64,000 nucleotides of DNA, from the NCBI RefSeq assembly GCF_001522865.1, contig NZ_LOWB01000116.1:434001-498000 (forward strand). The letters are read 5' to 3'. The DNA comes from Burkholderia sp. TSV86. Lineage in GTDB: Bacteria > Pseudomonadota > Gammaproteobacteria > Burkholderiales > Burkholderiaceae. Below the pieces are notes generated by a model. That model saw only the letters and a program-made list of their open reading frames with translations, did no database searches and was not told where the DNA came from. Positions 35,179-64,000 of the stretch are shown here, in pieces; the first letter of the stretch is position 1; every line of letters starts with the position of its first letter. The position numbers and the translations under genes are program-made.

Positions 35179-35188
35179 GGCGAAAATT

Positions 35189-39531: not shown

Positions 39532-39556
39532 TCGGGGTTCGTGCGATCCCGCATCA

Positions 39557-39586
39557 TCCAGCCCGGCGCGAGAGCGCCGGGCTGGA
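39557..39586. terminator. Hairpin between convergent kinase and thioesterase genes
   Basis: A perfect 13-bp stem (39557-39569 with 39574-39586) closed by a GAGA tetraloop. It lies 25 bp past the kinase stop and 20 bp past the thioesterase stop, so it can end both transcripts; it lacks a T-run on either side. Confidence 0.7.
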
Positions 39587-39605
39587 CGATGCCAGCCGGA
39601 GCCGG

Positions 39606-40100: not shown

Positions 40101-40500
40101 GAAATGCTCCTGAGGAACGGCTGCTTGCGGCAGCGGCGCACGCCTTCGAGATGAGGGCATGTCCTATTTTGAATTCGCGGCACGCAGAGGTGGTCCGGGC
40201 CGCTTGAGCCGTATTCCGGGATTTTGAAGCGCAATGTCCGGAGAAATCAGGCTGCGGGGTTTGCCTAGACCGCGCAGCCGGCTCACCCGGATTTACCCGA
40301 CGTTGCGGCGATCCGATCGTCGAGCGCGCCCTGAACCGTGGCACGCGGCGCGAATAGGGCGCATCCGTGCGCATGGGGCGCGTAGTTGCCGGCGGTCGTC
40401 GAGATGTTCGATAATTTGCTTCCAGAAAGAGGGCTCTTGCGCGGAATCGCCGCCTGATGACGACATGGGCCTTGTTCTATTCACGTTTTTCGGGCCCGCT
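40101..40500. other. Divergent promoter region between thioesterase and response regulator
   Basis: About 400 bp with no supported gene. It must hold the start signals for the leftward thioesterase and the rightward regulator. No obvious operator palindrome was found. Confidence 0.45.
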
Positions 40501-41915: not shown

Positions 41916-42046
41916 AAGCGCTTTGTGACCGACGACGGCACATTCGACGTCGAGATCCCGCGTGAGCATGAAGGCGCCTTCGCCCCGGTGCGAATTGCGA
42001 AGAGCAAGCGGCGCTTTACCGATTTCGATGACCGGTTCATCGCGGC
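41916..42046 (+). pseudogene. IS256-family transposase fragment
   Basis: About 43 codons give NKRFVTDDGTFDVEIPREHEG and then RRFTDFDDRFIAA, which follow the conserved IS256-family block just before the first catalytic region (KxVxxxxGxFxVxIPRDRxGxFEP and RFxGFDDKIIA). Homology is lost abruptly on both sides, so only an internal scrap remains. It lies between the kinase/thioesterase/regulator genes and the PKS cluster and suggests past insertion-sequence activity at this junction. Confidence 0.65.
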
Positions 42047-42782
42047 GCACCCATTGGAAAGTCCAGCGTGGGATCGCTCCAATGAGTCGTTCCGCTTCCA
42101 GCTGAGCGGTTTCGGTTTCGCGTCAATACCGTTGTCCGCGCTGCACGCCGCAGCTGCGCACATACGGTTTTTCCGATTTCCGAGGCGTGGCCGATCCACA
42201 CACGATCTGCCTGATGTCGGACGCGGCGTAACACACGACTGTTCTTCGCCACCGGTGCCGCTCATCACGCAAATAGCTAGTGCAGGGCATCACCCCGAAT
42301 CTCGTCAGATCCGTTCGAAGGTCCGTAACACGTGCACAGTCTCGCTGTGATTTTTTAAATTATGTTTTTCAAAAATAGAAAAAATCGCGGGCATAGATCA
42401 CTCTATTTATGAGGAATGGAGCGCATTCGATAAATTTTGTTTGGGTGTGAAAAAGAGAAAGTTGGCCATGTCGTTGGTTGTGAAAGTAAAATAGTAAACG
42501 GGATTTGATTTTGATTGGATAATTTTAAAAATTTGATTGATAACATTATTTTGGAAGATTTTTTGTGCCTCATTTGTAACTCATGAATTTGCAATGGGAT
42601 TGGTTGTTGATGAGTTGATCGGAGTAAATCGGATGAACGTGCTGGCGAGCTGATGCGTGCGATTCAATGCCTCTTTGCGTCGCGTTCCTGGAGTGTCGAG
42701 ACATGCGAATGACGAGGTATGCCCGCGGCTGTATCCGCTGATTTTTCGGGGGCAGGATATATCTAAGAAGGTTTGCAGTGTA
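42047..42782. promoter_or_regulatory. AT-rich non-coding stretch upstream of the P450-PKS cluster
   Basis: Bases about 42340-42610 are strikingly AT-rich (many A4-A6 and T4-T6 runs) in a genome otherwise near two-thirds GC, and hold no gene. At 42335-42349 a short CACAG/CTGTG stem is followed by a T6 run, a weak rightward terminator. The stretch ends in the P450 leader with AAGAAGG about 12 bases before its ATG. It probably holds the cluster promoter. Curved AT-rich DNA of this sort is a usual target of H-NS-type silencers on acquired islands; that is inference. The first 290 bp hold nothing recognised. Confidence 0.55.
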
Positions 42783-44192
42783 ATGAAGACGCTGAGAATA
42801 CCAAACGGTCCGGGAGATCGATTGCTGGGCGTGCCGCACATTTGGGGGATGAGGCGGAATTTCCTGAAATTTTTCTCGAATTTACATCGGCTATACGGTG
42901 ACGCCGTCCATATGCGAATACTGGGGCGCCGATATTTCAGTTTTTTTCATCCGGATTTGATCAGGGAGGTGCTCGTCGACAACGGCGATGCTTTTGTCCG
43001 CTGGGAAACCGGAATTCGCATTTTCACCAAGACCCACGGACTTGGCGTATTGACGTCGGAAGGCGATGTGTGGCGCCGCCAGCGACGTTTTTTGCAGCCG
43101 GTGTTCTCCACCCGAACGCTGGCCGATTTCGCGAAGCAGGTCGCCAGCGCGGCCGATGCCGCGCTGGAAAAACTGCCGGTCGGCGTGCCGTTCCGCTATG
43201 GTTCCGCGATGGGCGCGTTGGCCGTCGACGTGATTCTAGGCAGCATGTTCCGCAACGCGGCGCAATTTTCCGGCAGTGAGGTCGACCACGCGGTGACGTC
43301 GCTTGCCGAAGCCGCGTATCGCGATATGTTCATGCCGGTTCGGTGGCCCGACTGGCTGCCGTTTCCGACCGAGCGCGGCCGGCATCTTGCGATGCTGCGG
43401 CGGTTGATCGGTCAATGCGTGGCCGACCGCCGGCAGCACCCCGGCGGCTATCGCGATTGGGTCTCGCTGTTGCTCGAAGGGCAGGGCAGGGACAGCGGGC
43501 AGCCCGACGAACAGGAAATCTTCGATCAGGCGATCACGCTGTTCCTCACGCGTCACGAAACGACCGTCGCCACGCTCGAATGGATCGGCTGGGTGCTTGC
43601 GTCTCGCCCCGCGCTTGCCGCACGCGCGGCGGGCGAGGTCGATGCGGTGTTGGAAGGCCGCATGCCGGGCTACGACGACATCGCGAAGCTGCCGGTGCTC
43701 GGCCAGATGATTCGTGAAACGATGCGTCTTTATCCCGTCGCGCCCGCGCTGTTCATGCGTCAGGCGGTGCGCGACGTCGAAATCGGCGGCTGGGACGTGC
43801 CTAAGGGCTCGTTCGTCGCGCTGCAAAACTTCGAGGTTCATCGGGACCCGCGCTGGCATCCCGATCCCGATCGATTCGACATCGATCGCTTCGCGCCCGA
43901 AAACACGAAGCGCATCGCCCGCGGCGCGTACTTCCCGTTCGGCATGGGGCCGAGAGCCTGCGTCGGGATGAACTTCGCGCTGATGGAACTCACGATTGTC
44001 TATGCGCTGCTGCTGCAACGCTTCGAGTTGCGGCTCGCGCACGCTCAGACGGACCCCGGCTGGACGTTCACGGTCGCGTTACGGCCCGAACGGCCGGTGG
44101 AAATCGTTCTCACGCGCCGCGTCGACGCGCTCAATGTCAATGCACCAAGGGTCTTCGCCTGCGCGGCGAACGATTCCCAGGATGACCAATGA
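42783..44192 (+). CDS. Cytochrome P450, first gene of the biosynthetic cluster
   Basis: 469 residues. Haem-ligand loop FPFGMGPRACVGMNFALME (Cys393), K-helix ETMR (E312-R315) and the PERF-region equivalent DPDRFDIDRF are all present. The I-helix, normally AGxET/DT, reads TRHETT (256-261): the Glu-Thr that relays protons is kept, but the small Ala-Gly is replaced by Thr-Arg. There is no N-terminal anchor, as usual for bacterial P450s; the C-terminal 25 residues are extra. The overall pattern is closest to CYP102/CYP4-like fatty-acid P450s, fitting an acyl-chain tailoring role. The frame is open to 42657, but the ATG at 42783 has the better ribosome binding site. The acyl-AMP ligase follows after 48 bp. 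Confidence 0.9.
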   Translation: MKTLRIPNGPGDRLLGVPHIWGMRRNFLKFFSNLHRLYGDAVHMRILGRRYFSFFHPDLIREVLVDNGDAFVRWETGIRIFTKTHGLGVLTSEGDVWRRQRRFLQPVFSTRTLADFAKQVASAADAALEKLPVGVPFRYGSAMGALAVDVILGSMFRNAAQFSGSEVDHAVTSLAEAAYRDMFMPVRWPDWLPFPTERGRHLAMLRRLIGQCVADRRQHPGGYRDWVSLLLEGQGRDSGQPDEQEIFDQAITLFLTRHETTVATLEWIGWVLASRPALAARAAGEVDAVLEGRMPGYDDIAKLPVLGQMIRETMRLYPVAPALFMRQAVRDVEIGGWDVPKGSFVALQNFEVHRDPRWHPDPDRFDIDRFAPENTKRIARGAYFPFGMGPRACVGMNFALMELTIVYALLLQRFELRLAHAQTDPGWTFTVALRPERPVEIVLTRRVDALNVNAPRVFACAANDSQDDQ

Positions 44193-44240
44193 CCGACGGG
44201 CGTGATCGCTCCCGCCGGCGGAAACCAAAAGGATTATCAG

Positions 44241-45980
44241 ATGCAGCTGATCATCGATACTTTGTGCGCGAGATCCGCGGCGAGGCCCGAACAAACGGCG
44301 TTCGAATTTCTGTCGACGACGGGGGCGCCCCTCGCGGCGCTGAGCTATCGCGCGCTGGAGCGCGCGGCGGCTGGCGTGGCGGCGGTGCTGCGCGCGCGCG
44401 GCGTGCCCGCGGGCGCGCGCGTGCTGTTGCTGTGTCAGCCGGGGCCGGATTACGTCGCTGCGTTCTTCGGTTGTCTGCATGCCGGCGCGGTTGCGGTGCC
44501 GCTTTACCCGCCGAGAAACCGTCTTCACGTCGCACGGATCGTCAGCGTGCTGCGCGACGCGGGCGCGAGCCTCGTATTGTCCAGCCGCCAGAGCATTGAG
44601 CGGTGCGGCGCGTTCTTTGCCGAGCAAGGCGTATCCGAATCGATGCTCGTCGCCGTCGACGGCGATGCGCTTCGCGATGCCGAGCCGAACGCCCCGGCCG
44701 CGCAGCGCGCCGACGCGCTCGCGTTCCTGCAATACACGTCAGGTACGACAGGCGATCCGAAAGGCGTGATGATCTCGAACGGCAATCTCGCCCATCATCT
44801 TACGATGCTCAACGCATGGCTGGGCGGCGCGCCCGGCGGCACGATGGTGAGCTGGCTGCCGCCGTATCACGACATGGGGCTCATCAGCGGCCTGCTTGCG
44901 CCGGTGGCGGGCGGCTATCCGTGTGTGCTGATGCCGCCCGAGTCGTTCGCGCAGAATCCGTTTGTGTGGCTCGATGCGGTGAGCCGCCATCGCGCGACGA
45001 TCAGCGGCGGCCCGAACTTCGCGTATGGGATGTGCTGCAAGCGCTTGACCGACGAGCAAATCGCGACACTCGACCTGAGCCGTTGGCGGCTCGCGTTCAA
45101 TGGCGCGGAGCCTGTGCGGCAAAAGACGATCGACGCGTTCGCGACGCGTTTCGCGGCCGCGGGCTTCGAGCCTTCCGCGATGGCGCCGTGCTACGGCCTG
45201 GCCGAGGCCACGCTGCTGGTCGCGGGGCGTGAGCCGCACACATTGGCGCACGGGCTCGACGTCGATCGGCAAATTTTGCAGGACGAAGGCCGCGCGGCGC
45301 CCGCGCGCGACACATCGCCGATGGCCGGGGGCGACGCGGCGCGCTGGCGCTCGATTGCCTGCATCGGCCGCGTAACGGGCGACCAACATGTGTTGATCGT
45401 CGATCCGGAGTCGGGCGAGCGTTGCGCGGACGGCCGGGTCGGTGAGATCTGTGTCGCCGGGCCGAGCATCGCGCAGGGCTACTGGCGGCGTCCCGAGCTG
45501 AGCGATGCGGTGTTCCGCACGGTGCGCGACGGCGTGGCCGGCCGCGCATACATGCGCTCGGGCGATCTCGGCTTTCTGCTGGACGGCGAACTGTACGTGA
45601 CAGGGCGTCTGAAGGACATGATCGTGATCTCGGGGCGGAACTACTACTCGGAAGATCTCGAGCAGACGGTCACGGCGACCCAGGAGAAAGTGGTTCAGAA
45701 CGGCTGCGCGGCGTTCGTCGCGGACGATGACGAGCGGGAGAGCCTCGTCATCGTCGCCGAGATCGAGCGTGTCGAGCGTCACGGCAATCTGAACGATGTC
45801 GTGACGGACATCCAAAAAGAAATCTGGCTCAAGCACGAAGTCAATCCGCATTCGGTGTTCCTCGTCTCTCCGGGGCAACTGCCGAAGACGTCGAGCGGCA
45901 AGGTGCGCCGCAAGGCGTGCCGCCGGGCGCTCGAAGCGGGCGAACTCAAGGTGCTCGCTTACTGGAACGGCGCAGGCTGA
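44241..45980 (+). CDS. Fatty acyl-AMP ligase (FAAL) for polyketide starter activation
   Basis: 579 residues of the ANL superfamily. P-loop YTSGTTGDPKGVMISNGNL (from Y165), then SWLPPYHDMGLISGLLAP and ISGGPNFAYGMCC, marks of the FAAL group that make acyl-AMP and pass it to a carrier protein instead of CoA. Further motifs: CYGLAEATLLVAG, YMRSGDLGFLLDGELYVTGRLKDMIVISGRNYY and the C-terminal LPKTSSGKVRRKACR with the catalytic Lys near 553. No carrier domain is fused. AAAAGGA lies 8 bases before the ATG. It lies between the P450 and the PKS and presumably supplies the starter; the ACP it loads is not evident. Confidence 0.92.
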   Translation: MQLIIDTLCARSAARPEQTAFEFLSTTGAPLAALSYRALERAAAGVAAVLRARGVPAGARVLLLCQPGPDYVAAFFGCLHAGAVAVPLYPPRNRLHVARIVSVLRDAGASLVLSSRQSIERCGAFFAEQGVSESMLVAVDGDALRDAEPNAPAAQRADALAFLQYTSGTTGDPKGVMISNGNLAHHLTMLNAWLGGAPGGTMVSWLPPYHDMGLISGLLAPVAGGYPCVLMPPESFAQNPFVWLDAVSRHRATISGGPNFAYGMCCKRLTDEQIATLDLSRWRLAFNGAEPVRQKTIDAFATRFAAAGFEPSAMAPCYGLAEATLLVAGREPHTLAHGLDVDRQILQDEGRAAPARDTSPMAGGDAARWRSIACIGRVTGDQHVLIVDPESGERCADGRVGEICVAGPSIAQGYWRRPELSDAVFRTVRDGVAGRAYMRSGDLGFLLDGELYVTGRLKDMIVISGRNYYSEDLEQTVTATQEKVVQNGCAAFVADDDERESLVIVAEIERVERHGNLNDVVTDIQKEIWLKHEVNPHSVFLVSPGQLPKTSSGKVRRKACRRALEAGELKVLAYWNGAG

Positions 45981-46124
45981 CGCTCGGCGCCGCGTGCGCT
46001 TTTCCTCACGGCCTTCCTTTTCGCGATTTCGTCTGACTTGCGTGCCGCCGCGCTCCGGGGCTCACGGCGCGCGGTTGTCGCTGCGTCGTCGCGCAACATC
46101 TCTTCCGGACTACTGGTGGACATC

Positions 46125-49100
46125 ATGAACAAGCCGACTCTTCTTCCCGCGATCGACACGATCAATGCAGCGCGGGCGGCCGATCGCGCGCGGCGTGACA
46201 TCGCGGTCATCGGCCTCGCGGGACGTTACCCGATGGCCGAGCATCTCGATGCCTTTTGGCGCAATCTGGTCGACGGACGCGACTGCGTGTCGCCGCTGCC
46301 TCCCGGCCGCTGGCTGGCGGATCACCCGCAACTGAGCGGTTTCGGTGATGTCTGGGGCGGGTTTCTCGACGACGTCGACAGCTTCGACGCGCTGTTCTTC
46401 GGCATTACGCCGCGCGAAGCCGCGAAGCTCGACCCGCAGGAGCGCCTGTTTCTGCAATGTGCGTATGCGGCGATCGAGGATGCCGGATACACCCGCGCGA
46501 CGCTCGGGCGGGGCGAGCCTGGCGGCGCGCACGAGCATAACCGTGTCGGCGTGTTCGCGGGCGCGATGTATCAGGAGTACCAGCTCTATGGCGTAGAGGC
46601 GTCCTTCGCGAGCGAACCGACGGCCGCGACTGGCATCGCCGCGTCGATCGCGAACCGGGTCAGCTACTTCGGCGGCTTTCAAGGGCCGAGCCTTACGCTC
46701 GACACGATGTGCTCGTCGTCGATCACGGCGATCCATCTCGCGTGCCGCAGCCTCATGTTCGACGAATGCGAGGCGGCGCTCGCGGGCGGCGTCAACGTGT
46801 CGATCCACCCGAACAAATATCGGCTGCTAAAGGAGAACAAGTTTCTCGCCGCAACCGGCCGCTGCCGCAGCTTCGCGGCGGACGGCGACGGCTATGTGCC
46901 GGGCGAGGGGGTTGGCATCGTCGTCCTGAAGCGGCTCGACAAGGCGCTGCGCGACGGCGACCGGATTCACGCGGTGATCAAGGCGAGCGCGATTAATCAC
47001 GGTGGACACTCGAAGGGCTACTACGTGCCGAACGCGCGGCAGCAGGCGGCGCTGATTCACGAGGCGATCGAGCTGGCGGGCGTGGACCCGCGGCACATCC
47101 AGTATGTCGAGGCGCATGGCACGGGCACGCCTGTCGGCGATCCGGTCGAACTGCAAGGGTTGACCGATGCGTTTTCCGCCTATACGTCCGATAAGCAGTT
47201 CTGCGCGCTCGGCTCGGTGAAATCGAACATCGGGCATTCGGAAAGCGCGGCGGGCATCGCCGCGTTGACGAAAGTGATCCTCCAAATGAAAAACGGCATG
47301 CTCGTGCCGTCGCTGCATGCGCAGCAGATCAACCCGGCGCTCGATTTCGCCGCGTCGCCGTTCTACCTGCAGCGCTCGCTCGCGCAATGGCCGCGCGCCG
47401 TCGACGCGGCGGGCCGGGAATTGCCGCGGCTCGCGAGTCTGTCGTCTTACGGCGCAGGCGGCTCCAACGCGCACCTGATCGTCGCCGAGCATGTGCCGGA
47501 AACGGCGCATGCGGCATTGCGGACGGCGGCGGCGTTGCCGCCGATTATCGTGTTGTCCGCGCCGAATCCGGCCGCGTTGCGCGCGCGAGCGCAGCAGTTG
47601 CTGACGTTTTTGCGCGAAGGTGGCGCGGCCGGCGACAGTGCGTTACACGACTGCGCCTATACGCTGCAGGTCGGGCGCGACGCGTTTTTGCATCGCATCG
47701 CGTTTGTCGCACATGACGTCGCGCTTGCGCAGGCTTGTCTTGAGGCATACGTCGCCGGGGGCGCGCTGCCACAGCATGTGTATGCCGGCAAGGCCCGTGC
47801 GGAAACGGCCGCGGTGCCCGCCGCCGAACGGGATGCGCAGCGGATCGCGCGCGCGTGGGTCGACGGCGCGCAGGTCGACTGGACCCATTTGCATCGCGAC
47901 GCGCGGCCGCGCCGGATCAGTTTGCCGACTTATCCGTTTGCAAGCAGCAAGATCTGGATGAAGGCGGATACGCGCTTGCAGGCCGCCGAGCCTGCGCCAT
48001 CGTCGAGCAACACGCGTGACGGCGGTCATCCGTTGCTGCATCGGCGTGAGCCGGCCGGCGACGCGTTTGCCTCGCATTTCAGCGCACGCGAGCCGTTTCT
48101 TGCGGATCATCAGATCGACGGCCGGCCGATGCTGCCTGCCGTCGCCTATCTGGAAATGGCCCGCGCGGCGTTTGCCGCGCGAATGAACGCCGAGCCGGCC
48201 GTGCGCGTTGCCGACGTGACGTGGATGCGCCCCGCGCGCGCCGACGGTGCGGCGCTCGCGATGCGCATCGCGTTTTCCGCGCAACACGGCGAGCGCGATG
48301 CGTTCGTCGTCGAACACATCGGCGACGGCAAGCCGTCCGTTTGCGCGACGGGCCGTGTCGACGCGTTGACGCAAGCGGCGTCCGCGCGCATCGATGTGAA
48401 CGCATTCATCGCGCGTCATTGCGACAAAACCTACGACGCTGACGCCTGCTACCGCCGCTTCGCCGCCGTGGGCCTGCAATACGGTCCCGCGCACCAGGTC
48501 ATCGCCGGGCTGCATGCGGGGCCGCGGCATGTCGTTGCGCGCTTGTCGCGGCCGCGGACGGACGACAATTATTGGCTGCATCCGTCGATCGGCGACGGTG
48601 CGCTGCAGTCGATCATCGGGTTTTATCTCGACGACGCGCGCGATTGGGTGCCGGTACCTTTCTCGCTCGCGCGCGCCGATCTGCATCGGCGCTGCGGCAC
48701 TGATATGTGGTGCATTGCGTCGCGCGCGGACGGCGACGATACGTTCGACATCGCACTGCTCGACGCACAGGGCGAACTGTGCGCGCGCTTCGATATGTTG
48801 AAGATCCGTAATTTCGCGCGGGTGCGCGCGGCCGATTCGCCGTCCGGCGCCGCCGACGGCGCCGCCGCTCGCGTCGAGCTGAATGTGCCGCTCGCGATGC
48901 GCTGGGTGCGCGCCGCCTGGCAGCCGCAGACGGGCGCGCGTCCGGCGCTCGTCTGGCAGATCGGCGGCGATGACGCGGCGGACCGCGAACTGGCGCAATA
49001 CGGAGCGCGCCGTGTCCGCGTCGGGCGCGATTCGCTTGGCAGCATCGACGCATGCGCGGCGCTGCTCGAGCGCGAAGGACCCGTCGACGAGATCGTCTGG

Positions 49101-52100
49101 ATTGCGCCGCCCGCAGGCGAGGACATCGCGCGGATACAGCGGCACGGCGTAGGCGTGCTGTTCCGCCTCGCGAAGGCGCTGATCGCGCAGGGGTATCTCA
49201 CCAAGCCGCTCGCGTTCACGATCGTCACCCGTGGCGCGCAGGCGGTGCTCGATGAAGAGCCGCTCGAGCCGACGCATGCGTCGGTGCATGGTTTCGTCGG
49301 CGTGCTCGCGAAGGAGATGCGCGCGTGGCGGTTCCGTCTCGTCGATCTCGAACTCTCGGAGCCGCGGCCGATGCACGAAATCCTGTCGATGCCGTTCGAT
49401 CGGGACGGCGAGGCGTGGAGCCGGCGCGCGGGGGGGTGGTATCGGCAGCAGCTTGTGCCGTGTTGCGAGACGCTGCGTGACGAAGCGCCAGCGTTTCGCC
49501 AAGGCGGCGTGTACGTGATCGTCGGCGGGGCGGGCGGCATTGGCAAGGTGTTGAGCCGTTATCTGATCGACTGTTACGACGCGCAGGTGGTATGGCTGGG
49601 CCGGCGCAGCCTCGCGCAGGGCGTCGACGCGGATCTCGCCGGGTTCGCGGCCGCGCGCCGCCAGCCCGCCTATTGGCAGGTCGATGCGACCGACGCGCAC
49701 GCGCTCGCGCGCGTTCGCGGCGAGATCGCCGCGCGCTTCGGCGCGGTGCATGGCGTGATCAATTCGGCCATCGTGCTGCGCGACCAGGGCATCATGACGA
49801 TGGACGAAGCGCAGTTCTCGCAGGTGCTCGACGTGAAGGTGGCGACGAGCGTCAACGTGGCGAGCGCGTTCGGTGGCGATGCGCTCGATTTCATGCTGTT
49901 TTTCTCGTCGCTCGCCGGTTATCTGAAGATGCCGGGGCAGAGCAACTACGCGGCCGGTTCGGTGTTCCAGGACACGTTCGCGCACTATCTGGGCCGAGTC
50001 GGCCGGTTCCCGGTCAAGGTGATGAACTGGGGCTACTGGAGCGAATTTGGCGCGGGCGCGTCCGAACATTATCGCAAGCGCATGGCGGCGATCGGCGTGG
50101 CGTCGGTGCGGATCGCGGACAGCATGGCGGCGCTCGAGCAGCTGCTGCGCGGCTCGCTGCCGCAGATGGGTTTTATCCGGATGCTCGATCTGGCGCGTGT
50201 CGCGATCATTCCGTCGGCGCGGCTCGACGAGGCCGTCGAAATCGTAGGCGGCCGCGCACATCCGCGCCGCGACGTCGCGCGTGTGCTGGACGACGCGCAG
50301 CGGCAGCTCGTGGCGCTGCGCGTCGAGGATGGCGGCATTGTGCGCGCGCGCGGCGAGCGCGGCGTCGCGCTTGCCGCCGCGCAGAGCGCGTCACACGCGC
50401 GAGCGCCGCTGCCGGCCGCCGCCGCACCGTCGGCGACCGCACCCCGGCCGGCGCCCGAGCCGGCTTCAACCGCGTCCGGCGCGGGCGAGCGTCGCGGCGC
50501 CGCGCTCGCATACATGAAGGCGCTCGTGAGCCGCGCGCTCGAAGTGCCGCTCGACGCGCTGGACGACAGCACGCCGCTCGTGCGTTATGGCGTCGATTCG
50601 ATTTCCGCCGTTCACATCACCAATGCGCTGAATGAACGGTTCGGCGACGTCGACAGCACGCTGCTGTTCGATCTGCAAACGATCGCGGATCTCGCCGATC
50701 ATTTTCTCGCGACGCATCCGGATGCGTTCCCCGCGCATGAGGCTGCCGAACCAGCGGCGCAATCCGCCGATCCGGCGGCGCACCCTGCCGTGGACGCCTG
50801 CGCGGTACGAAGCGGCGAAATCGGCCCGCATGCGGACGCCACCGGTCAGGTAGCGGACGCACCGCACGCGTTGCGCGTCGCGATGATCGCCTACATGAAG
50901 ACGCTGGTGGCGAACGCGCTCGAAGTTCCGTTCGATGCGCTGGACGACAGCACGCCGCTCGTGCGCTACGGCGTCGATTCGATTTCCGGCGTTCACATCA
51001 CGAACGCGCTCGGCACGGTGTTCGACGGCGTCGACAGTACGCTGTTGTTCGATCTGCAAACCATCGAGGAATTGGCGGATCACTTCCTCGAGCGCGACGC
51101 GGCGCGTTGCGCGGCGCTATGCGCCAGTGCCAAGGCCGGGATCGAAACTGAAACTCGACGCGATGCGAGGTTCGGGCCGCTGGAAGCGGCGGCCGTCGGC
51201 GGCGATCCATCGCCGACGGCAACTCCGGCACCTCCCCACCACGACGCGACGCCGCCGCTGCTCGCACTCGAACGTGACGACGACATCGCGATCGTCGGCC
51301 TGTCCGGACGTTATCCGGAGGCCTCGGATCTGCGCGCCTTCTGGGCGAATCTGCGCGATGGCGTGCACAGCATTCGCGAGATTCCCGCCAGCCGCTGGGA
51401 TTGGCGCGCACTGCACACGGACGATCCGGAGACGGTCGGACGTTCCTATTCGCGCTGGGGCGGTTTCATCGACGGGCACGACGAATTCGATCCCGACTTC
51501 TTTCATATCGCGCCCGCCGATGCAGAACTGATGGACCCGCAGGAACGTCTGTTCCTGCAGTACGCGTATGCATGCATCGAGGATGCGGGCCATACGCCCG
51601 AGAGCCTCAACGCGGCGGGCGAGGTGGGCGTGTTCGCGGGCGCGATGAACAGCGACTATCCGCTCGCGTCGCGCGCGTGGTCGATCGCGAATCGCGTGTC
51701 ATACGTGTTCGACTTCCAAGGGCCGAGCATGACGATCGATACGGCATGCTCGTCGTCGCTGACGGCGCTGCATGTCGCGATGGAGGCGTTGCGCGCCGGC
51801 ACGTGCGCGAGCGCGCTCGCCGGCGGCGTCAATCTGATTACCGATCCGGCGCATCTGGCCAGCCTGTCGTACATGCAGATGCTGTCGCACGGCGACGCAT
51901 GCCGCGCGTTCGGTGACGGCGCGGACGGCTTCGTCGCCAGCGAGGGCGTCGGCATCGTGCTCTTGAAGCCGTTGCGCGCGGCCAAGCGCGACGGCGATCA
52001 TGTCTACGGCGTCGTCAAGGGGACGATGGTCGCCGCCGGCGGACGCACGTCGGGGTATACGGTGCCGAGCCCGCGCGCGCAGAGCGCGGTGATCGAGCGC

Positions 52101-55100
52101 GCGCTGGCGCGCGCGGGCGTCGGCGCGGACAGCATCAGCTATGTCGAGGCGCATGGCACTGGCACCGCGCTGGGCGATCCGATCGAGGTCAAGGGGCTCA
52201 CCGGTATCTACGGCGGCGCGCGCCGCGACGGTTCGACGTGCGCGCTCGGCTCGGTGAAATCGAACATCGGCCATGCCGAGAGCGCAGCGGGTCTCGCCGG
52301 ACTGACCAAGATCCTGCTGCAAATGAAGCACGGCACGCTCGCGCCGACGCTGTACGCGCAGCCGGTCAATCCGCGCATCGACTTCGCGCGCACGCCGTTT
52401 TGCCTGCCACTGCACGCGCAGCCGTGGGCGCGGCCGACCGTCGAGCGTGACGGCCGCGCGTGGACGCTGCCAAGGATCGCGGGGCTGTCGTCGTTCGGCG
52501 CGGGTGGCGCGAACGCGCACGCCATCATCGCGGAGGCGAACTTGCCGGACGACGCGCCGTTGGCGGCGCCCGGTCCTCAGGCGATCGTGTTGTCCGCGCA
52601 GAGCCGCGAGCAAGTGCGCGAGCGCGCGAGCGCGCTGCTCGCGCAGATTCGCGACGAAGCGCTCGGTGACGATCGGCTGCATTCGATCGCGTTCACGCTG
52701 CAGGTCGGCCGGGAAATGCTCGATGTGAGGCTCGGGTTCGTCGTCGACTCGATTGGCGCGCTGGCCGCATGGCTCGCGAGTATCGTCGACGCCGATTGGG
52801 CGACGCTCGACGGGCTCGCGTTCGGCAGCGGCCGGCCGCGCGATCGCACACCGGTGCAAGCGCGTCTCGTCACGCCCGGCGATGTGCGGGCGCTGAATGG
52901 GCTCGTCGCCGACTGGGCGGCCGGAGCGCGCGTCGACTGGAACGCATGGCATATCCGCAAGCCGCGCCGGATCAGCTTGCCGACCTATCCGTTCAAGCGG
53001 GAACGCTATTGGATTACGCCGAGCCACGATATCCGGCGCTTGACTGCGCTGGCGCTGGCGCAGTCAGATGAGCGGCGCGATAGCGTGGCGCCGCCGCGGG
53101 CTGCACTGCCGCGCGCCGCGCCGCCGGCCGAAGCCGCGCCGGTGTATCTGTATCGGGAGACCTGGCGGCCGCAGGCGCCCGGCGACGCGTTAGCCGACGC
53201 CGCGCGGCGTGTGCTGTGCATCGTCGACACGTCCGCGGCCGCGGACGTGCTGGCGCCCGTCGTCGCGCAAGGGCATCCCGGCGCGGACGTGCTGTTCATC
53301 GTTTGCGCGGACGCCGCCGCTGCAGGACCGGACCGGATCGCGCTGCGCGGTGAGGCCGCCGATGATTACCGCGACGCATTCGCCGCGGTGCGCGAGCGCT
53401 GGCCGGCCGTCGACGTCTGCTATCACGCGCTCGCCGCGTGCGATGTCTACTATTGCGAACGCGATCACGCATTGCTGTACACGATCCAGGGGATGATCAC
53501 GGCCGGCCTGCCCGTTGCGCGTTTGCTGCTGCTTGCGCGCTGCAAGCAGACGCGTCTGCAACCTCAGGTGGATAGTTGGATCGGCCTGTGCCGGTCGCTG
53601 CCGATGGTGTTGCCGCAAACCGATGCGGCACTGCTCGCGTGTCACGATACGGCGGCGGCGGGCGGTGCGCCGTTTGCCGACTGGTTCGCGCAACGCGCGA
53701 TTGCCGAGGCGCGCGCGCAGAAGATGCAAAGCGTGCTGTACCGGGACGGCGTGCGTCATGTCGCCGACGTCGAGCCGCTCGCGCTGCCCGATGCGCCGTC
53801 CGGGCCGCATGCCGGACACGCCGGACAGACTTGGCTCGTCACGGGCGGCATGGGCGCGCTCGCCACGCTGCTGTGGCGTCATCTGCATGCACAGGGCGCG
53901 AACGTCGTGCTGACCGGCCGCTCCGCGCCGGACGCGGAACAGAATCGCAAGCTCGATGCTTGCGATCGCGGTGCAGGGCGCGTGCTGTATGTGCAGGCGG
54001 ACGCGGGCGACGAAGTGGCGATGCGGGCCGCCATTCAACTGGCGAAGACGCGTTTCGGCCGGATCGACGGCGTGATTCATGCGGCCGGCGTCGCGCCGAC
54101 CACGACGATCGAATCGATCGATTTCGACGATTACCGGCGCGTGCTCGCGCCGAAGGTCGACGGCGCACGCGTGTTGACGCGGCTTGCCGAGCGCGAGGGC
54201 TGGCGCTGGCTCGTGCAGTTTTCGTCATCGTCCGCCGTGCTCGGCGATTTCGGCTCATGCAGTTACGCGGTCGCCAACCGCTTTCAGACCGCGCATGCGC
54301 TCGCGCAGCCGGACGGCCCCACCCGGCATATCACGATCAACTGGCCGTTATGGCGCGACGGTTCGATGGGGCTGGGCGGCGAGCGTCGCGAGCGGGTCTA
54401 TCTCGCGAGCAGCGGCCAGGATTATCTCGAAACGCACGCGGGGCTCGCGTGTTTCGAGCGCATCCTCGCCGCGTCGCCGCGGCAGGCGATCGTGCTCGTC
54501 GGCGACGGCAATCCGTTGCGCCGCCGCGCGGGCGGGCCGAACGAAGCTGCAAGGAACGAAGCTGCGATGAACGAAGTGGACGCGTCCGGCCCGGACGCGC
54601 CGCCCGCATCGCCCATGCCAGCCGCCGCGATGAACGCCGACGAGGCGACGCTGCGCGCGATTGTCCTCGACGCCATCGAAGCCCAACTCAAATTGCCCGC
54701 CGAACGCGTGCGCACGGGGCTCAACTGGGTCGAACTCGGTTTCGACTCTATCCGCCTCGCGGCGCTCGGCAAGCGGCTGGGCGAAACGCTCGGGGTGCGC
54801 GTGACGCCCGCGACGTTCTTCGCCAACCCGAGCGTCGACGATCTCATCGGCCATCTCGCGCAGGCTGGCGTGTCGGCCCGCGCGGCGCAGCCGGCGCGCT
54901 CGGCAGCCGCCGAGCGGGCGCTTTCCGACGCACACCGGGATTCTCCGGTGCAGGCGGATGCGACGCCGGATTCGCCGGCGCGCGATTGCGCATCCGCGCC
55001 GCCGGATGCGGCGACACGCGGCGCCCCCCGCGCCGCGCCGCGCTACGAGCCGATCGCGGTGATCGGCATGAGCGGACGCTTTCCGGGGGCCGAATCGATC

Positions 55101-57230: not shown

Positions 57231-60200
57231 ATGCTGTCGATACCCATGCGCAACTTGCCGCTGCTTACAGGGCCGGCGAGATTTCCACCGACGAACTGAA
57301 GCGCGCGCTGCGCGCGTTTGCGCCGATTCCGCTGTCGGTCGGGCAGAAGGGCCTGTGGGCCTTGCACAAGACTTGGCCCGACATCGGCGCTTACGTGATT
57401 CCGCTCGCGTTGCGCTGTGAACGGCCGCTCGACGTCGCCGCATTGGAGCGCGCGTATCGGCACACGCTCGCGTCGCATCCGCTATTGACGGCCCGGCTCA
57501 TCGACGTGCAAGGCGAGCCGGCGCTGCAACCCCGCTCGCCCGAGGGCTTCGGCCTGCGCGTGCACGACGCGGGCGCCGCCGGCGACGAGGAGATGGTCGA
57601 GCGCCTGCGCGCGTTGGCCAAACGGCCGCTGCCGCTCGAAGGCGACGCGCTGATCGACGCCGAGATCCATCGCGTCGGTGATGCGTGCTGGTATGCGTTG
57701 ATCCGCGTTCATCACATCGTATTCGACGGCACCTCCGCCGTGCTGGTTCTGAACGATCTGTTCGACGCGTATCTGAACCTGTTGCGCGGCGCGCCGCCTC
57801 GCGCGGTGGCGCCCGCCGCGCCGTTTCGCGAGTTCGTCGATTGGCAGCGCGCGATGCTCGACGGCCCGCAAGGCGAGCGCCATCTCGACCATTGGCGCGG
57901 CGCGCTCGACGGTGCGCCCGCGCCGCTCGCGCTGCCGACGGACCAGCCGCGCGGCGAGCACGCGTCGTTCGACGGCCGCAGCCTGCGGGTAGCCGTGCCG
58001 CCCGCGCTGCATGCGCGCGTCGCCGCGTTCTGCGACGCGCACGACGTGTCACGGGCGGTGCTGTATCTCGGCGTGTTCAACGGCCTGCTGAGCCGATACG
58101 CGCAGCGCGCGGACATCGTCGTCGGCATGCCGGCGCTCGGCCGGCCCGATGCGCGCTTCGAATCCTGCGTCGGCTACTTTGTCAACATGCTGCCGATCCG
58201 CAGCCGGAACGTGCAGGACGTCCCGGCGCTCGATTACCTGCGCGATCTGCGCGAGACGCTGTTCGACGCGCTCGAACACGCGGACTATCCGTTTCCGGCG
58301 CTGCTGGAGGCATTGAAGGTGCCGCGCGACGGACGCCAGCGGCCGCTCTTCGATGTCGCGTTCGCGTATCAGAATTTCGCGCACGGCCATTGGCTCGAGC
58401 AGATCGAGCGCGATTACGCGGCGCCGCTCGGCGTGCGGATGATCGACGACATCCGGCAGGAGGGCGAATACGAACTGGAACTCGAGGTGATCGAACGCGC
58501 GGGCGGCGCGACGCTCAATCTGAAATACGCGGGCGAGCTTTACGATCGCGCGCGCGCCGGGCGGATCATCGCGCATTTCCTGCGCCTGCTCGATGGCGTG
58601 CTCGCGCATCCGGCGCGACCGCTCGCCGATCACGACATCCTGACCGATGGCGAGCGCGCGTTGATCGAGCGTTGCAACGCGACGGCGCGGCCGATACCGC
58701 GCATCGCGCATTTCGTCGAATGGATCGCCGGGCAGGCGGCGCACGCGCCGCGGAAGATCGCGGTTCGCCATGGCGACGTCGCGCTGGACTACGCGACGCT
58801 GATGCGCGACGCGACGGCGCTCGGCAATTATCTGCGCGCGCGCGGCATCGGCCCCGGCGCGAAGGTTGCGATCTGCGTCGAGCGCTCGCCGGATCTGCTG
58901 CGCGCGACGCTTGGCGTCGCGCTGAGCGGCGCCGCATACGTGCCGCTCGATCCGCGCTACCCCGCGCAGCGTCAGCGCTACATGCTCGACGATAGCGGCG
59001 CGGCGCTGCTGCTCACGCAGGCCGCGATCGAGCGCGACTGGCTGCCCGGTTGCCCGACGCTCTTTGTCGATCGCGAGCGCGAGCGGATCGCCGCTTATGC
59101 GGACAGCGTCGTGCCGGAACGGGCCGCGCTCGACGAGGGCGCGCTGGCGTACCTGATCTATACGTCCGGCTCGACGGGCACGCCCAAGGGCGTGATGGTC
59201 ACGCATCGCGCGCTGAACAACTTCCTGAGCGCGATGGGCGAGTTGCTCGACGTCCGAGCGGGCGACACAATGCTCGCGCTGACGACCTTCAGCTTCGATA
59301 TCGCCGCGCTCGAACTGTTTCTGCCGCTCGTGCGAGGCGCCGAGTGCGTGCTGTGCGATACGGACGTCGCGGCCGATGCCGAGCGGCTGAAGACGTTCGT
59401 CGAGACGGTGCGGCCGAGCGCGATGCAGGCGACACCGACGACTTGGCAGATGCTGTTCCAGGTCGGCTGGCATCCGTCGCCCGCATTGAAGGTGCTGTGC
59501 GGCGGCGAGGCGCTGCCGCCCGCGCTGCTCGAGCGCTTCGCCGCATCCGGCGCGCGCTGCTGGAACCTGTACGGACCGACCGAAACGACCATCTGGTCGA
59601 GCGCGAAGCGGCTCGACGGCGCATCTCGCGTGACGATCGGCGCGCCGATCGCGAACACACGGCTTTACGTATTGAACGCGCACCGCCGGATGCAGCCGCC
59701 CGGCACGCCGGGTGAACTCGCGATCGCGGGCGCGGGGCTCGCGGCCGGCTATCACCGGCTGCCCGCGCAGACCGACGAGAAGTTCGTCGACGATCCGTTC
59801 CATCCGGGCGAGCGGATGTTTCTGACGGGCGATCTCGCCGTGCGCGACGGCGACGGCGATTTGCGCTGCCTCGGCCGCCGCGATCATCAGATCAAGCTGC
59901 GCGGCCACCGGATCGACGTCGAGGAGATCGAGGCTTGCCTGATCCGGCAGGGCACGCTCGATGCGGCGGCCGTCGTGCTGCACGAAGCGCCGTCGCGGCC
60001 GCCGTGTCTCGTCGCGTATGTGGTGCCGCGCGCGGACGATGTGTCGTCCGCGGCGCTCAAGGCCGAGCTTGGCTTGCGTTTGCCCGCGTACATGGTGCCG
60101 CAGCGCATCGTGTTCGACACGCGATTGCCGACCACCGCAAACGGCAAGATCGATCGCCGCGCGCTGATCGAACGGCCGCTGCAGCCGGCCGCCGACGATG

Positions 60201-63200
60201 CCGCGCCTGCGCCTGCGCCCGCGCATGGCGGCGCGGGCGCGGCACTCGTGCGGGCGGCGTGGGAGGCGGTGCTCGGCTATCCGATCGACGACGACGCGGC
60301 GGGCTTTTTCGATTTCGGCGGGGATTCGGTGAGCGCCGTGCAGGTCGCGCAGTGGCTTGGCGAGCGCGTCGGACGCAAGATCGAAGTGACCCTGCTGTTC
60401 CGGCATCCGACAATCGCCCGGCTCGGCGCGGTGCTCGACGAAATGGGCGCGACCGTGCGTGCCACGCAAACGGAGCGCGCGGATGCCGACGGCGGCGCGG
60501 TCGCGGCGGCCCGCGTGGCCGGCGACGCCCGGCCGGGCCCGGCCGCGCGAGCGCCTGGCGCGCCGGCGAGCGGCCCCGCGCGCTCGCGCAGTGTCGCGGT
60601 GATCGGCATATCGTGCGAATTCGCCGAAAGCTCGGATGTCGACGCGTTTTGGGCAAATCTCTGCAACGGCCGCGCATGTGTGACGCGCTGGAGCGATGCG
60701 GAACTCGAAGCGCTCGGCGTGCCGCAAGCAACGCGCCGAGATCCGCGTTTCGTGCCGGCGAAAGCGGTGATCGAGCATCGCGGCGCGTTTGACGCCGCGT
60801 TTTTCGGCCTGTCGCCGCGCGACGCCGGCTTCATGAGCCCGGCATTCCGGCACTTGCTGATGCATGCGTGGCGTGCGTTCGAGGATGCGGGGCAGGTGCC
60901 GTCCGACGCGCCGCGCACGGCCGTTTATATGTCGGCGGGACAGGGCGCGTCCGGCGGGGCGGACGCCGCGCGCGGCGCGTACTGGATCGAGGAGGCGGAC
61001 GAATACGTGCGCTGGCTGATGGCGCAGGGTGGCAGCATCCCCACGATGATCTCGCATAAGCTCGGCTTGACGGGCCCAAGCGTGTTCGTGCAGTCCAATT
61101 GCTCGTCGTCGCTCGTCGCGCTCCAGGCGGGGCTCGAAAGCATCCGCAGCGGCGCCGCCGACTATGCGCTTGTCGGCGCGGCCAATGTGTTCGCCGCGCC
61201 GATGGCTGGCTATCTGCACCAGCCGGGCCTCAATTTCTCGAGTAACGGCCAGTGCCGCGCGTTCGACGACGCAGCGGACGGCATGGTGGGCGGCGAGGGT
61301 GTCGCCGTGCTGCTGCTCAAGCGCGCCGAACTCGCGCTCGCGGACGGCGACGCCATCTACGCATGGCTTGATGAAGTGCAGGTCAACAACGACGGCGCGC
61401 TGAAGGCCGGTTTCTTCGCGCCGAGCGCGGCGGGCCAGGCGGAGGTCATTCGCGGCACGCTCGCGCGCGCGGGCGTCGCGCCCGCCGACGTCGGCTATGT
61501 GGAGACGCACGGCACCGGCACGGCGCTTGGCGATCCGATCGAGTTCGCGGCGCTCAGCGATGCGTTCGGCGCGCTCGCGCGCGACGGCGAGCGCTGCGGC
61601 ATCGGCTCGGTCAAGAGCAACATCGGCCACACCGACACCGTGGCGGGGCTGGCGGGCGCGATCAAGGCGATCCTGAGCCTGCGCCACGGCGTGATCCCGC
61701 CGACGCTCCACGTCGACGCGCCCGCTAAACGGCTGGATCTCGAACATTCGCCGTTCGCGCTCGTCGAGCGTGCACGCGCGTGGCCGAGCCGCGACGGCAA
61801 GCCGCGCTATGCCGCGGTCAGCTCGTTCGGCGTTGGCGGCACGAACGCGCATGCGTTGTTCGGGAGCGCGGACGATGCGCCGTCAACGTCGCCGTGCGCG
61901 GCGACCGGCGAGCCGGCGGCGTGCGTCGTGCTGTCCGCGAAGACGCGCGACAAGCTCGTCGCCGTCGCGCAGCGGATGCTCGCCTTCGCGCGGCGCCCCG
62001 GCCCGCTGCCCGACTTTCGCGCGGCGGCATACACGCTGCAGACCGGACGCGTTGCGTGGACGCATCGCTTGGCGATCGTCGCGCGCGATTGGGACGACGC
62101 GCGCCGCGCGCTGGCGTCGTTCGTCGCGGGCGACGCCAACGCGGCCGTCCACGTCGGCGACACGAAGCGCAGCGCGCCGCCCGCCGGCACGTTCGATGCG
62201 CACGACGATGCGCACGCGCTCGCGCGTCACTGGACGGCGGGCGGCGAGGTCTGCTGGGCGCGCGGGCCGCTGCGGCCACCGCGCGTTCATCTTCCGACTT
62301 ATCCATTCATCACCGCAAGGGAACTCATCGACATGCCACTCACCGCACGCGACGCCGATACGGCGTCGAGCACGGCTGCTCCTCCGTCCCGCGTCGCGCC
62401 GGTTGCGGCCGCGACCCGCGCATCGGTCGCATCGAACACGTCGGTCGCGCCTATTGCGCGCGGCCGCGTGGTGGCCGCCGTGCCGTGCTGGGAGCGTTGC
62501 GCGGCCATGCCGGCCGGCCCGCACGACGCGGGCTTGACGGCCGTGGCCTGCGCCGGGCGCGAGGTGCCGCTGCCGTTCATGCACGCGCGGCGCGTCGATC
62601 CGTGCGAACACGGTGACGCCGCCGCGCTGGAGCGGCTGGTGCGAGCGCACCCGGACGTCGATCACTGGGTCTGGCTGCTGCCTGACGACGCGCCCGGCAC
62701 GCCGGCCGAGATGGCCGCGCAGCAGCGTTGGGGCGTGCTCTGGGGCGCGGCGTTCCTGCGCGCGCTCGGCGGTGCGTATGGGTCGAAGCCGTTAAAGCTG
62801 ACGGTGGTGACGCGGCGCGCCGTCGCGATTCTCGCGGGCGACCCTGTCACGGCAACGCACGCGGGCGTGCATGGTCTTGTCGGCACGGTGGTCAACGAGC
62901 ATCCTCATTGGCGGGCGCGGATCGTCGATCTCGATGACGCTGGCGGCGCTGACGAGGCGGCGGCGCGCGCGCTTGACGCGCTGCCGTTCGAGCGCGGCGG
63001 CCGGCCGTGGGCGCGCCGCCGCGGCGACTGGTTCCGCCCGGCGCTGCGTCCCGTTGACGATGCGCTCGTCGCGCGGGCGGCGCCGGGCGGCCGGGAGGGC
63101 GGTGTCTATGTGGTGGTAGGCGGCGCGGGCGCGATCGGCCAGGACTGGAGCGAGCACATGATGCGCACGCATCGCGCGCAACTCGTGTGGATCGGCCGCC

Positions 63201-64000
63201 GCGCGCAGGATGACGCGATCACCGCTGCGATCCGCCGGCTCGAAGCGCTCGGCCGCGCGCCCGTCTATATCCAGGCCGATGCGGCCGATGCGCGGCAATT
63301 GGCGCGCGCCTGCGACGAGATCCGTGCGCGCTTTGCACACGTGCATGGCGTCGTACATGCGGCGATGCTGCACGAGAACCAGCCGCTGCACCGGCAAAAC
63401 GCGGACGCGTTCGAGCGGAATTTGTCGGCGAAGGTGACGGTCGCGTTGAATCTCGTCGAGGCATTCGATTTCGGCGCGCTCGATTTTCTGCTGTTCTTCT
63501 CGTCGGTCAACGAGTTTTATCTGAATCCGAACTGCGCGGCGTATGCGGCGGGCGGCACCTTCATTGCGTCGTTCGCGGATCAATTGAACCAGCGCGGCGC
63601 GGGGCGGGCGAAGGTGATCCACTGGGGGCATTGGGAGACGCCGCGGCTGCGCGACGACGCCCACGGCGCGCGGCGGCACTTGGCGCGTGCGGGATTCGGC
63701 ACGCTCGAGCCGGCCAACGGCATGGCGTTGCTCGATATGCTGCTCGCGCAGCCGTTCGAGCGGCTTGCGGCGTTCAGCATCGTCCACGCGGGCGGCGCCG
63801 CGCCGCTGCATTTCAGCGACATGGCGTTGCACGCGAAGGCGCCGGCGGCCGTGCCGGTGCACGACGCGCCGCAGCCGGCCGGGCTGGCGCAAGCCCAGGA
63901 CATGATCGATGTGATCTACGGCCGGGTGGACGACATCGCGCCGCTGCTTTGCGCGCTGCTGTGGCGGCAGATCGCCGCGTTCGCCGCCGATGCCGGCTTG
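57227..64000 (+). CDS. NRPS/trans-AT PKS hybrid: C-A(Gly)-PCP-KS-KR, then off the window
   Basis: 2258 residues visible, 3' end missing. The ATG at 57227 overlaps the PKS stop (ATGA). Condensation domain about 25-450 with HHIVFDG (162-168). Adenylation domain about 490-990: YTSGSTGTPKG from 645, FSFDIAALELF, NLYGPTETTIW, and the A10 Lys974. By hand alignment the specificity residues read D-I-L-Q-L-G-L-I-W, the glycine pattern. PCP Ser1034 in FGGDSV. KS4 from about 1124 (Cys1292 in SNCSSSL, ETHGTGTALGDP, SNIGHTDTVAG). A ketoreductase follows with GGAGAIG near 1970 and FFSSVNEFY then AAYAAGGTF. No AT is present. The last visible residues (LLCALLWRQIAAFA) look like the start of a C-methyltransferase domain. 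The chain from the previous protein is presumably joined to glycine and then extended. Confidence 0.92.
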   Translation, partial: MNAVDTHAQLAAAYRAGEISTDELKRALRAFAPIPLSVGQKGLWALHKTWPDIGAYVIPLALRCERPLDVAALERAYRHTLASHPLLTARLIDVQGEPALQPRSPEGFGLRVHDAGAAGDEEMVERLRALAKRPLPLEGDALIDAEIHRVGDACWYALIRVHHIVFDGTSAVLVLNDLFDAYLNLLRGAPPRAVAPAAPFREFVDWQRAMLDGPQGERHLDHWRGALDGAPAPLALPTDQPRGEHASFDGRSLRVAVPPALHARVAAFCDAHDVSRAVLYLGVFNGLLSRYAQRADIVVGMPALGRPDARFESCVGYFVNMLPIRSRNVQDVPALDYLRDLRETLFDALEHADYPFPALLEALKVPRDGRQRPLFDVAFAYQNFAHGHWLEQIERDYAAPLGVRMIDDIRQEGEYELELEVIERAGGATLNLKYAGELYDRARAGRIIAHFLRLLDGVLAHPARPLADHDILTDGERALIERCNATARPIPRIAHFVEWIAGQAAHAPRKIAVRHGDVALDYATLMRDATALGNYLRARGIGPGAKVAICVERSPDLLRATLGVALSGAAYVPLDPRYPAQRQRYMLDDSGAALLLTQAAIERDWLPGCPTLFVDRERERIAAYADSVVPERAALDEGALAYLIYTSGSTGTPKGVMVTHRALNNFLSAMGELLDVRAGDTMLALTTFSFDIAALELFLPLVRGAECVLCDTDVAADAERLKTFVETVRPSAMQATPTTWQMLFQVGWHPSPALKVLCGGEALPPALLERFAASGARCWNLYGPTETTIWSSAKRLDGASRVTIGAPIANTRLYVLNAHRRMQPPGTPGELAIAGAGLAAGYHRLPAQTDEKFVDDPFHPGERMFLTGDLAVRDGDGDLRCLGRRDHQIKLRGHRIDVEEIEACLIRQGTLDAAAVVLHEAPSRPPCLVAYVVPRADDVSSAALKAELGLRLPAYMVPQRIVFDTRLPTTANGKIDRRALIERPLQPAADDAAPAPAPAHGGAGAALVRAAWEAVLGYPIDDDAAGFFDFGGDSVSAVQVAQWLGERVGRKIEVTLLFRHPTIARLGAVLDEMGATVRATQTERADADGGAVAAARVAGDARPGPAARAPGAPASGPARSRSVAVIGISCEFAESSDVDAFWANLCNGRACVTRWSDAELEALGVPQATRRDPRFVPAKAVIEHRGAFDAAFFGLSPRDAGFMSPAFRHLLMHAWRAFEDAGQVPSDAPRTAVYMSAGQGASGGADAARGAYWIEEADEYVRWLMAQGGSIPTMISHKLGLTGPSVFVQSNCSSSLVALQAGLESIRSGAADYALVGAANVFAAPMAGYLHQPGLNFSSNGQCRAFDDAADGMVGGEGVAVLLLKRAELALADGDAIYAWLDEVQVNNDGALKAGFFAPSAAGQAEVIRGTLARAGVAPADVGYVETHGTGTALGDPIEFAALSDAFGALARDGERCGIGSVKSNIGHTDTVAGLAGAIKAILSLRHGVIPPTLHVDAPAKRLDLEHSPFALVERARAWPSRDGKPRYAAVSSFGVGGTNAHALFGSADDAPSTSPCAATGEPAACVVLSAKTRDKLVAVAQRMLAFARRPGPLPDFRAAAYTLQTGRVAWTHRLAIVARDWDDARRALASFVAGDANAAVHVGDTKRSAPPAGTFDAHDDAHALARHWTAGGEVCWARGPLRPPRVHLPTYPFITARELIDMPLTARDADTASSTAAPPSRVAPVAAATRASVASNTSVAPIARGRVVAAVPCWERCAAMPAGPHDAGLTAVACAGREVPLPFMHARRVDPCEHGDAAALERLVRAHPDVDHWVWLLPDDAPGTPAEMAAQQRWGVLWGAAFLRALGGAYGSKPLKLTVVTRRAVAILAGDPVTATHAGVHGLVGTVVNEHPHWRARIVDLDDAGGADEAAARALDALPFERGGRPWARRRGDWFRPALRPVDDALVARAAPGGREGGVYVVVGGAGAIGQDWSEHMMRTHRAQLVWIGRRAQDDAITAAIRRLEALGRAPVYIQADAADARQLARACDEIRARFAHVHGVVHAAMLHENQPLHRQNADAFERNLSAKVTVALNLVEAFDFGALDFLLFFSSVNEFYLNPNCAAYAAGGTFIASFADQLNQRGAGRAKVIHWGHWETPRLRDDAHGARRHLARAGFGTLEPANGMALLDMLLAQPFERLAAFSIVHAGGAAPLHFSDMALHAKAPAAVPVHDAPQPAGLAQAQDMIDVIYGRVDDIAPLLCALLWRQIAAFAADAGL

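Follow-up and report, generated by a model that had tools for sequence, protein, structure and literature searches.

Discrete acyltransferases (ATs), a beta-alanine module of the nonribosomal peptide synthetase (NRPS) type and the in-cluster aspartate decarboxylase KirD are found in the kirromycin pathway of Streptomyces collinus (PMC5818483). Solanimycin of Dickeya solani involves an AT-less polyketide synthase (PKS), an AT and an acyl hydrolase, a glycine adenylation (A) domain, a cytochrome P450 and a ketosynthase-dehydratase (KS-DH) module without ketoreductase (KR) (PMC9765074, PMC10204066), and the trans-AT line of janustatin from Gynuella sunshinyii, which has non-elongating KS domains (KS0), installs beta-alanine (PMC11755721). 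In the desmamide system, a fatty acyl-AMP ligase (FAAL) precedes the PKS, with no acyl carrier protein (ACP) identified in between (PMC11837247). For these papers, as for those cited below, statements refer to the sections covered. Here, we study a gene cluster of Burkholderia sp. TSV86 that resembles each of these systems in the respects named. It starts at position 42783 of the window, i.e., of the 64,000-nucleotide stretch analysed here (NZ_LOWB01000116.1, positions 434,001 to 498,000).

A preliminary description made from the window had noted that the cluster runs off its end. The source contig spans 537,501 bases within a 5.82 Mb draft genome, such that the rest is readable, and extension to the right gave the remaining genes through a LuxR regulator. 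The cluster is complete on this single contig and covers ~49 kb plus regulators. We read it as a complete orphan trans-AT PKS-NRPS line whose product would be a fatty-acylated dienoyl polyketide with glycine and beta-alanine, set free by a thioesterase (TE). For cluster class and building blocks, we put the probability of this reading at about 80%, while we are less sure of the precise collinear chain. Gene order, domain order, the lack of cis-AT domains, a discrete AT, an in-cluster PanP and conservation in Burkholderia singularis are observed directly.

Domain order and building blocks

The domain order was derived from domain mapping together with a Pfam scan, for which PKS2 and PKS3 were each split into three pieces. 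No AT domain (Acyl_transf_1) is listed by Pfam in PKS1, PKS2 or PKS3. PKS1 reads KS1-DH-KR-ACP-ACP / KS2-KR-ACP / KS3-ACP, followed by C-A(Gly)-PCP / KS4-KR-MT-ACP / KS5-ACP / C-A(beta-Ala-like)-PCP / KS6// in PKS2 and //DH-ACP / KS-DH-KR-ACP / KS-DH-KR-ACP / KS-ACP-TE in PKS3 (C, condensation; PCP, peptidyl carrier protein; MT, C-methyltransferase). The preliminary description had placed a P450, a FAAL, an AT-less PKS and a PKS-NRPS collinearly from 42783 on, which the open reading frame (ORF) listing and Pfam confirm; its order KS-DH-KR-ACP2, KS-KR-ACP, KS-ACP, C-A-PCP-KS-KR matches our mapping. Hallmarks of trans-AT systems are present, namely matches to RhiE-like_linker, the split of KS6//DH6 across PKS2/PKS3 and three KS domains without HGTGT. 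The domain order, with nine KS domains in the whole line, led us to discard a polyunsaturated fatty acid (PUFA) synthase and a lipopeptide line made up of NRPS modules only. Between ACP4 and KS5, PKS2 has a low-complexity linker of repeated Ala-Glu-Ala/Ala-Glu-Thr units (residues ~2758-2910).

Next, we consider the catalytic motifs. HxxxGxxxxP is found in DH1, DH6, DH7 and DH8, HHxxxDG in both C domains and GxSxG in the TE. KS0 domains usually sit in modules without reducing domains directly before a C domain. HGTGT is lost in KS3 (HSIGL), KS5 (HGIAS) and KS9 (AATGS), the latter also lacking the catalytic His. The absence of HGTGT served as criterion for non-elongating KS domains in work on swinholide (PMC5772238). 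Since its HGTGT is lost, KS3 is probably non-elongating and would hand over the chain to the NRPS module for glycine. Given a non-elongating KS3, for which HSIGL speaks, the domains also fit the product start proposed in the preliminary description, i.e., a fatty acyl chain extended by an alpha,beta-unsaturated and a beta-hydroxy unit and joined to glycine.

Amino-acid specificities were read by placing the A domains on a GrsA ruler. The resulting signatures are DILQLGLIW for A1, which we take to be a glycine code, and VDAVFSLAD for A2, whose V-D-x-V-x-S-x-A-D pattern we take to be a beta-alanine code. A literature text search found none of six signature strings, these two included, in print. 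The glycine-type module named in the preliminary description holds up on the A1 signature. For A2, independent support comes from PanP, since its gene lies within the cluster and scores 772 bits against the TIGR03799 equivalog model (cut-off 606), the sole one of 5 genome matches above the cut-off. An ordinary PanD aspartate decarboxylase is encoded on another contig (C21:238772-239116), so that the genome has two different enzymes for this product, PanP of the cluster being the second. The cluster thus combines what a beta-alanine-incorporating NRPS calls for, i.e., a putative A2 code of beta-alanine type and the supply gene PanP.

Among the discrete enzymes, AT1 scores 282 bits with the FabD model (cut-off 261) and carries both GHSLG and the Arg responsible for malonyl carboxylate binding, as for a discrete malonyl-type AT. 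AT2 reaches 82 bits, below the same cut-off, and has Ser at the position of this Arg. FAAL models are among the top family matches of the ligase, headed by the PKS/NRPS model PRK05691; none of the best 25 of its 100 family matches passes a curated cut-off. Its best matches in the Protein Data Bank (PDB) are 7r7e-g (named polyketide synthase), 3kxw and fatty-acid-AMP ligase chains including FadD32, FadD23 and FadD28. The P450 shows the Cys-ligand loop and ExxR, and its nearest solved structures are 7wzl, 3dbg, a P450-reductase fusion and CYP3A4. The GC content is 56.7% at 42001-44000 (most of the P450 gene plus upstream sequence) versus 66-72% in the remainder of the window from 44001 on.

Taken collinearly, the line would work as follows. 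The FAAL would activate a fatty acid to acyl-AMP and pass the acyl group to a carrier. PKS1 would add a 2-enoyl unit and then a 3-hydroxy unit, with KS3 merely transferring the chain, before the first NRPS module adds glycine. KS4-KR-MT would contribute an alpha-methyl-beta-hydroxy unit, KS5 would again only transfer, and the second NRPS module would insert beta-alanine made from aspartate by PanP. KS6//DH-ACP, which has no KR, would add one unit that probably stays a beta-ketone, and two KS-DH-KR-ACP modules would add the diene. Finally, the terminal KS9 (His lost) and its ACP would hand the chain to the TE for hydrolysis or for lactone formation on a chain hydroxyl. Extender units would be loaded by AT1, AT2 would act as editing acyl hydrolase, the P450 would oxidise the starter or the finished chain, and the hybrid sensor kinase with the LuxR regulator would control expression. 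For an n-carbon saturated starter without oxidation, the calculated linear acid is C(n+18)H(2n+26)N2O7, e.g., C26H42N2O7 for octanoate.

The coordinates of all features are collected in Table 1, using window numbering, i.e., contig position minus 434000 beyond 64000.

Table 1. Genes of the cluster and domains located within the window.
Feature	Position	Strand	Remarks
Cytochrome P450, first cluster gene	42783..44192	+	469 aa; ORF listing, Pfam p450 E 1.3e-71
Free-standing FAAL-type fatty acyl-AMP ligase	44241..45980	+	579 aa, no fused ACP; ORF listing, Pfam AMP-binding
PKS1, AT-less	46125..57230	+	3701 aa; ORF listing, Pfam
KS1 + linker	46185..47924	+	domain mapping
DH1	48015..48839	+	HxxxGxxxxP present
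KR1 + structural part	48840..50084	+	domain mapping
ACP1a	50490..50729	+	domain mapping
ACP1b	50871..51104	+	domain mapping
KS2 + linker	51270..52979	+	domain mapping
KR2	53769..54398	+	domain mapping
ACP2	54627..54884	+	domain mapping
KS3	55038..56693	+	HGTGT replaced by HSIGL
ACP3	56847..57104	+	domain mapping
PKS2 (PKS-NRPS)	57227..72919	+	15,693 bases, 5230 codons; cut by window end at 64000
Condensation domain C1	57317..58681	+	HHxxxDG present
Adenylation domain A1	58727..60166	+	signature DILQLGLIW
PCP1	60224..60451	+	domain mapping
KS4 + linker	60578..62293	+	would take glycyl intermediate
KR4	62438..63679	+	C-methyltransferase, ACP and remaining PKS2 beyond window
PKS3	72909..88004		5031 aa; beyond window
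Discrete FabD-type acyltransferase (AT1)	88001..88876		beyond window
PanP aspartate decarboxylase	88954..90486		profile match; beyond window
AT-like protein (AT2)	90676..91671		beyond window
Hybrid sensor kinase	91685..94657	-	beyond window
LuxR response regulator	94776..95429		beyond window, after sensor kinase

Conservation, distribution and borders

The cluster is syntenic in B. singularis LMG 28154 (NZ_FXAN01000050.1), with the same genes in the same order at ~93% DNA identity. Identity is 92.3-94.5% in the main DNA blocks and 88.9% in one block of 404 bases. The average nucleotide identity (ANI) between LMG 28154 and TSV86, an Australian water isolate, is 94.4% (PMC5592201). When comparing motif segments between both species, 31/35 are identical and the other four differ by one residue each. 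All A-domain, KS5, KS9 and TE segments are identical, and the KS3 motif of B. singularis is HSIGM. Pairwise ratios of nonsynonymous to synonymous substitution rates (dN/dS) are 0.225 (P450), 0.147 (FAAL), 0.188 (PKS1), 0.250 (PKS2) and 0.238 (PKS3; first 3300 codons only), where the PKS protein alignments carry gaps. We do not consider the genes chance frames, since open frames extend up to 5230 codons and dN/dS is 0.15-0.25 in the sister species.

We also screened for relatives of individual cluster proteins. The P450 has matches in 34/65 Burkholderia genomes (E <= 1e-60) and the FAAL in 21/398 family genomes (E <= 1e-130), but only TSV86 itself and B. singularis exceed 39% identity for the former (B. 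singularis 90%) and 51% for the latter (96%). KS1-DH of PKS1 is matched in 12/65 Burkholderia genomes (E <= 1e-120), with orthologues in TSV86 and B. singularis (95%), the only other one of the 65 above 80%; the remaining matches listed show 38-58% identity. The C-A2-PCP module is found in 2/398 family genomes (E <= 1e-150) and in 1/369 class genomes, its own (E <= 1e-120). That is, the beta-alanine module has no close orthologue in 396 other family or 368 other class genomes at these thresholds, where the class sample was drawn evenly but thinly and may miss relatives elsewhere. The preliminary description had matched the architecture to no known Burkholderia product, and the KS1-DH and second-module searches are consistent with this.

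Scanning public-genome contigs with the FAAL, i.e., a single-protein scan that reaches close relatives only, gave 38 pattern matches, 2 of them confirmed, namely B. singularis LMG 28154 (96%) and an Actinomycetota metagenome-assembled genome (34%). Among viral contigs, 0 of 12 pattern matches were confirmed. On plasmids, the C-A2-PCP module has matches in 21 records, none of which reaches 60% identity (31-32% for the 15 listed). As far as tested, the cluster thus appears confined to the B. singularis lineage. The sections covered of PMC7912996, PMC8506256 and PMC5592201 hold no description of it, and the main text of a trans-AT survey (PMC7930024) names neither singularis nor TSV86.

To the left, the genes at 38123-41447 (a 7TM kinase and its neighbours) align at 71-77% with three other Burkholderia genomes, from each of which 40 kb were taken. 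DNA similarity breaks off at 41.4 kb, short of the P450, and the left border thus lies between 41.4 and 42.8 kb. The same comparison did not reveal a right border. The upstream 7TM kinase occurs in 20/65 Burkholderia genomes (E <= 1e-80). The downstream hybrid kinase probably belongs to the cluster, since only 3/65 genomes carry a match at E <= 1e-150 (TSV86, B. singularis with 91% and one other with 41%). Two adjoining Gly-rich repeat proteins are encoded downstream of the cluster (L008 13201-15710). At 30410-36535 on the minus strand, i.e., ~6 kb to the left of the cluster, are resistance-nodulation-division (RND) efflux genes for an AcrB-type pump, an HlyD-type adaptor and an outer-membrane factor; judged by size rather than alignment, three matching frames occupy this place in B. 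singularis as well. The efflux genes could serve product export or be unrelated to the cluster.

Points against the proposed product

Several observations weigh against a working, strictly collinear line. First, KS3 and KS5 retain the motif His, i.e., elongation would still be possible, and DH6 has an intact motif although its module has no KR. The line might therefore work non-collinearly, in that KS3/KS5 elongate, the twin-ACP module 1 iterates or DH6 acts on the product of another module. Chain length would then differ, which makes this a variant of our reading rather than its exclusive rival. Both KS domains lack HGTGT, and their modules, without reducing domains and just before a C domain, occupy the typical KS0 position. 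Still, beside the retained His and the tandem ACPs, such a mode has a published counterpart, since for solanimycin both an iterating module and a KR-less module (module 2, comparable to that of DH6) that leaves a beta-ketone have been proposed (PMC10204066, PMC9765074). We consider non-collinear working a substantial possibility, if short of an even chance.

Second, a search of 103.5 kb gave no discrete ACP that could serve the FAAL; a profile of the cluster's carrier domains matched only the three PKS frames. Desmamide offers a precedent for a FAAL without identified ACP before the PKS, and a fused or adjoining ACP is usual but not universal (PMC11837247). The starter must enter via a carrier encoded elsewhere, via the twin ACPs, or directly.

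Third, the P450 I-helix reads TRHETT in both cluster-bearing species, with Arg for the usual Gly. The comparison used three of six loci from other genomes, and in these Burkholderia relatives the motif is AGHET; 4/5 of the best PDB chains have AGHETT or AGYETT (two of them being one protein and a near copy). Judging from this Arg, the P450 may be no ordinary hydroxylase.

Fourth, PKS3 differs between the two species in its DH8/KR8 stretch by two close indels of lengths not divisible by three, and PKS3 of the LMG 28154 draft genome is interrupted in this region. Two further such indel runs, located where the compared piece begins and ends, may be edge effects. At the indel site, the TSV86 peptide is Arg-rich (contig C116 ~516800-517200, window numbering 82.8-83.2 kb). 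An inactive or mis-sequenced DH8/KR8 module therefore has to be reckoned with, be it a real change or an error in one of the two drafts. In addition, the cluster's dN/dS values exceed 0.076, the genome-wide mean published for B. singularis versus TSV86 and obtained with another method (PMC5592201). The interrupted PKS3 and the departing oxygen-binding motif of the P450 would both suit a decaying cluster without product. However, all three PKS genes are open in TSV86 (3701, 5230 and 5031 codons), motif segments are nearly invariant between the species and dN/dS stays well below 1, such that we regard decay as very improbable.

Significance and relation to known systems

Evidence for trans-AT PKS clusters was reported in only 20/224 species groups of Burkholderia sensu lato (PMC8506256), and Burkholderia trans-AT clusters have yielded antibiotics such as gladiolin (PMC12838130). 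In a published screen, only one of two B. singularis isolates showed activity. This isolate, LMG 28155, acted against S. aureus ATCC 29213, A. baumannii LMG 10520 and C. albicans, and a wider test found inhibition of 3/3 S. aureus strains and of some fungi, but of 0/3 A. baumannii strains (PMC7912996). Fractionation gave no active fraction, i.e., did not recover the agent, and nitrogen is absent from all three compounds detected in the extract (PMC7912996), for which reason the predicted product would not be among them. This unexplained activity of another B. singularis isolate gives reason to look for the product. That the cluster both causes it and makes a new scaffold with a dienoyl end, starter entry without dedicated ACP and a non-canonical P450 seems unlikely to us. 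Regardless, the cluster is apparently uncharacterised and complete, brings along regulators and a beta-alanine supply of its own, and offers a testable formula and labelling pattern. That is, it represents an orphan cluster of known type (trans-AT PKS-NRPS) for which the product prediction is useful and testable.

The cluster might instead be a divergent version of a characterised family with a known or near-known scaffold, e.g., a kirromycin-like chain with beta-alanine ending in a ring. Kirromycin shares the discrete ATs, the beta-alanine module and the in-cluster decarboxylase (PMC5818483), and the janustatin trans-AT PKS-NRPS builds a heterocycle from beta-alanine (PMC11755721). Given the lack of close orthologues of the beta-alanine module among the family and class genomes at the thresholds given above, the internal position of this module and the terminal TE, we hold such a kinship to be rather remote.

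Solanimycin differs from the fatty-acylated glycine/beta-alanine polyketide proposed here by serine and valine modules in place of beta-alanine, and the part of its gene table covered shows neither FAAL nor PanP (PMC9765074, PMC10204066). The SolI P450 model gives 51.5 bits with the cluster's P450 at a cut-off of 850. Janustatin has one NRPS module, at the end of its line, and no FAAL or glycine module in the part covered (PMC11755721). The desmamide FAAL is part of a multidomain enzyme (PMC11837247), while it is a free protein here. In kirromycin biosynthesis, beta-alanine comes with the last core enzyme, KirB, and there is no typical TE (PMC5818483). In contrast, the TSV86 cluster starts with a FAAL, has its beta-alanine module internally, with another four KS domains and a terminal TE behind it, and encodes as decarboxylase PanP, an enzyme dependent on pyridoxal phosphate (PLP).

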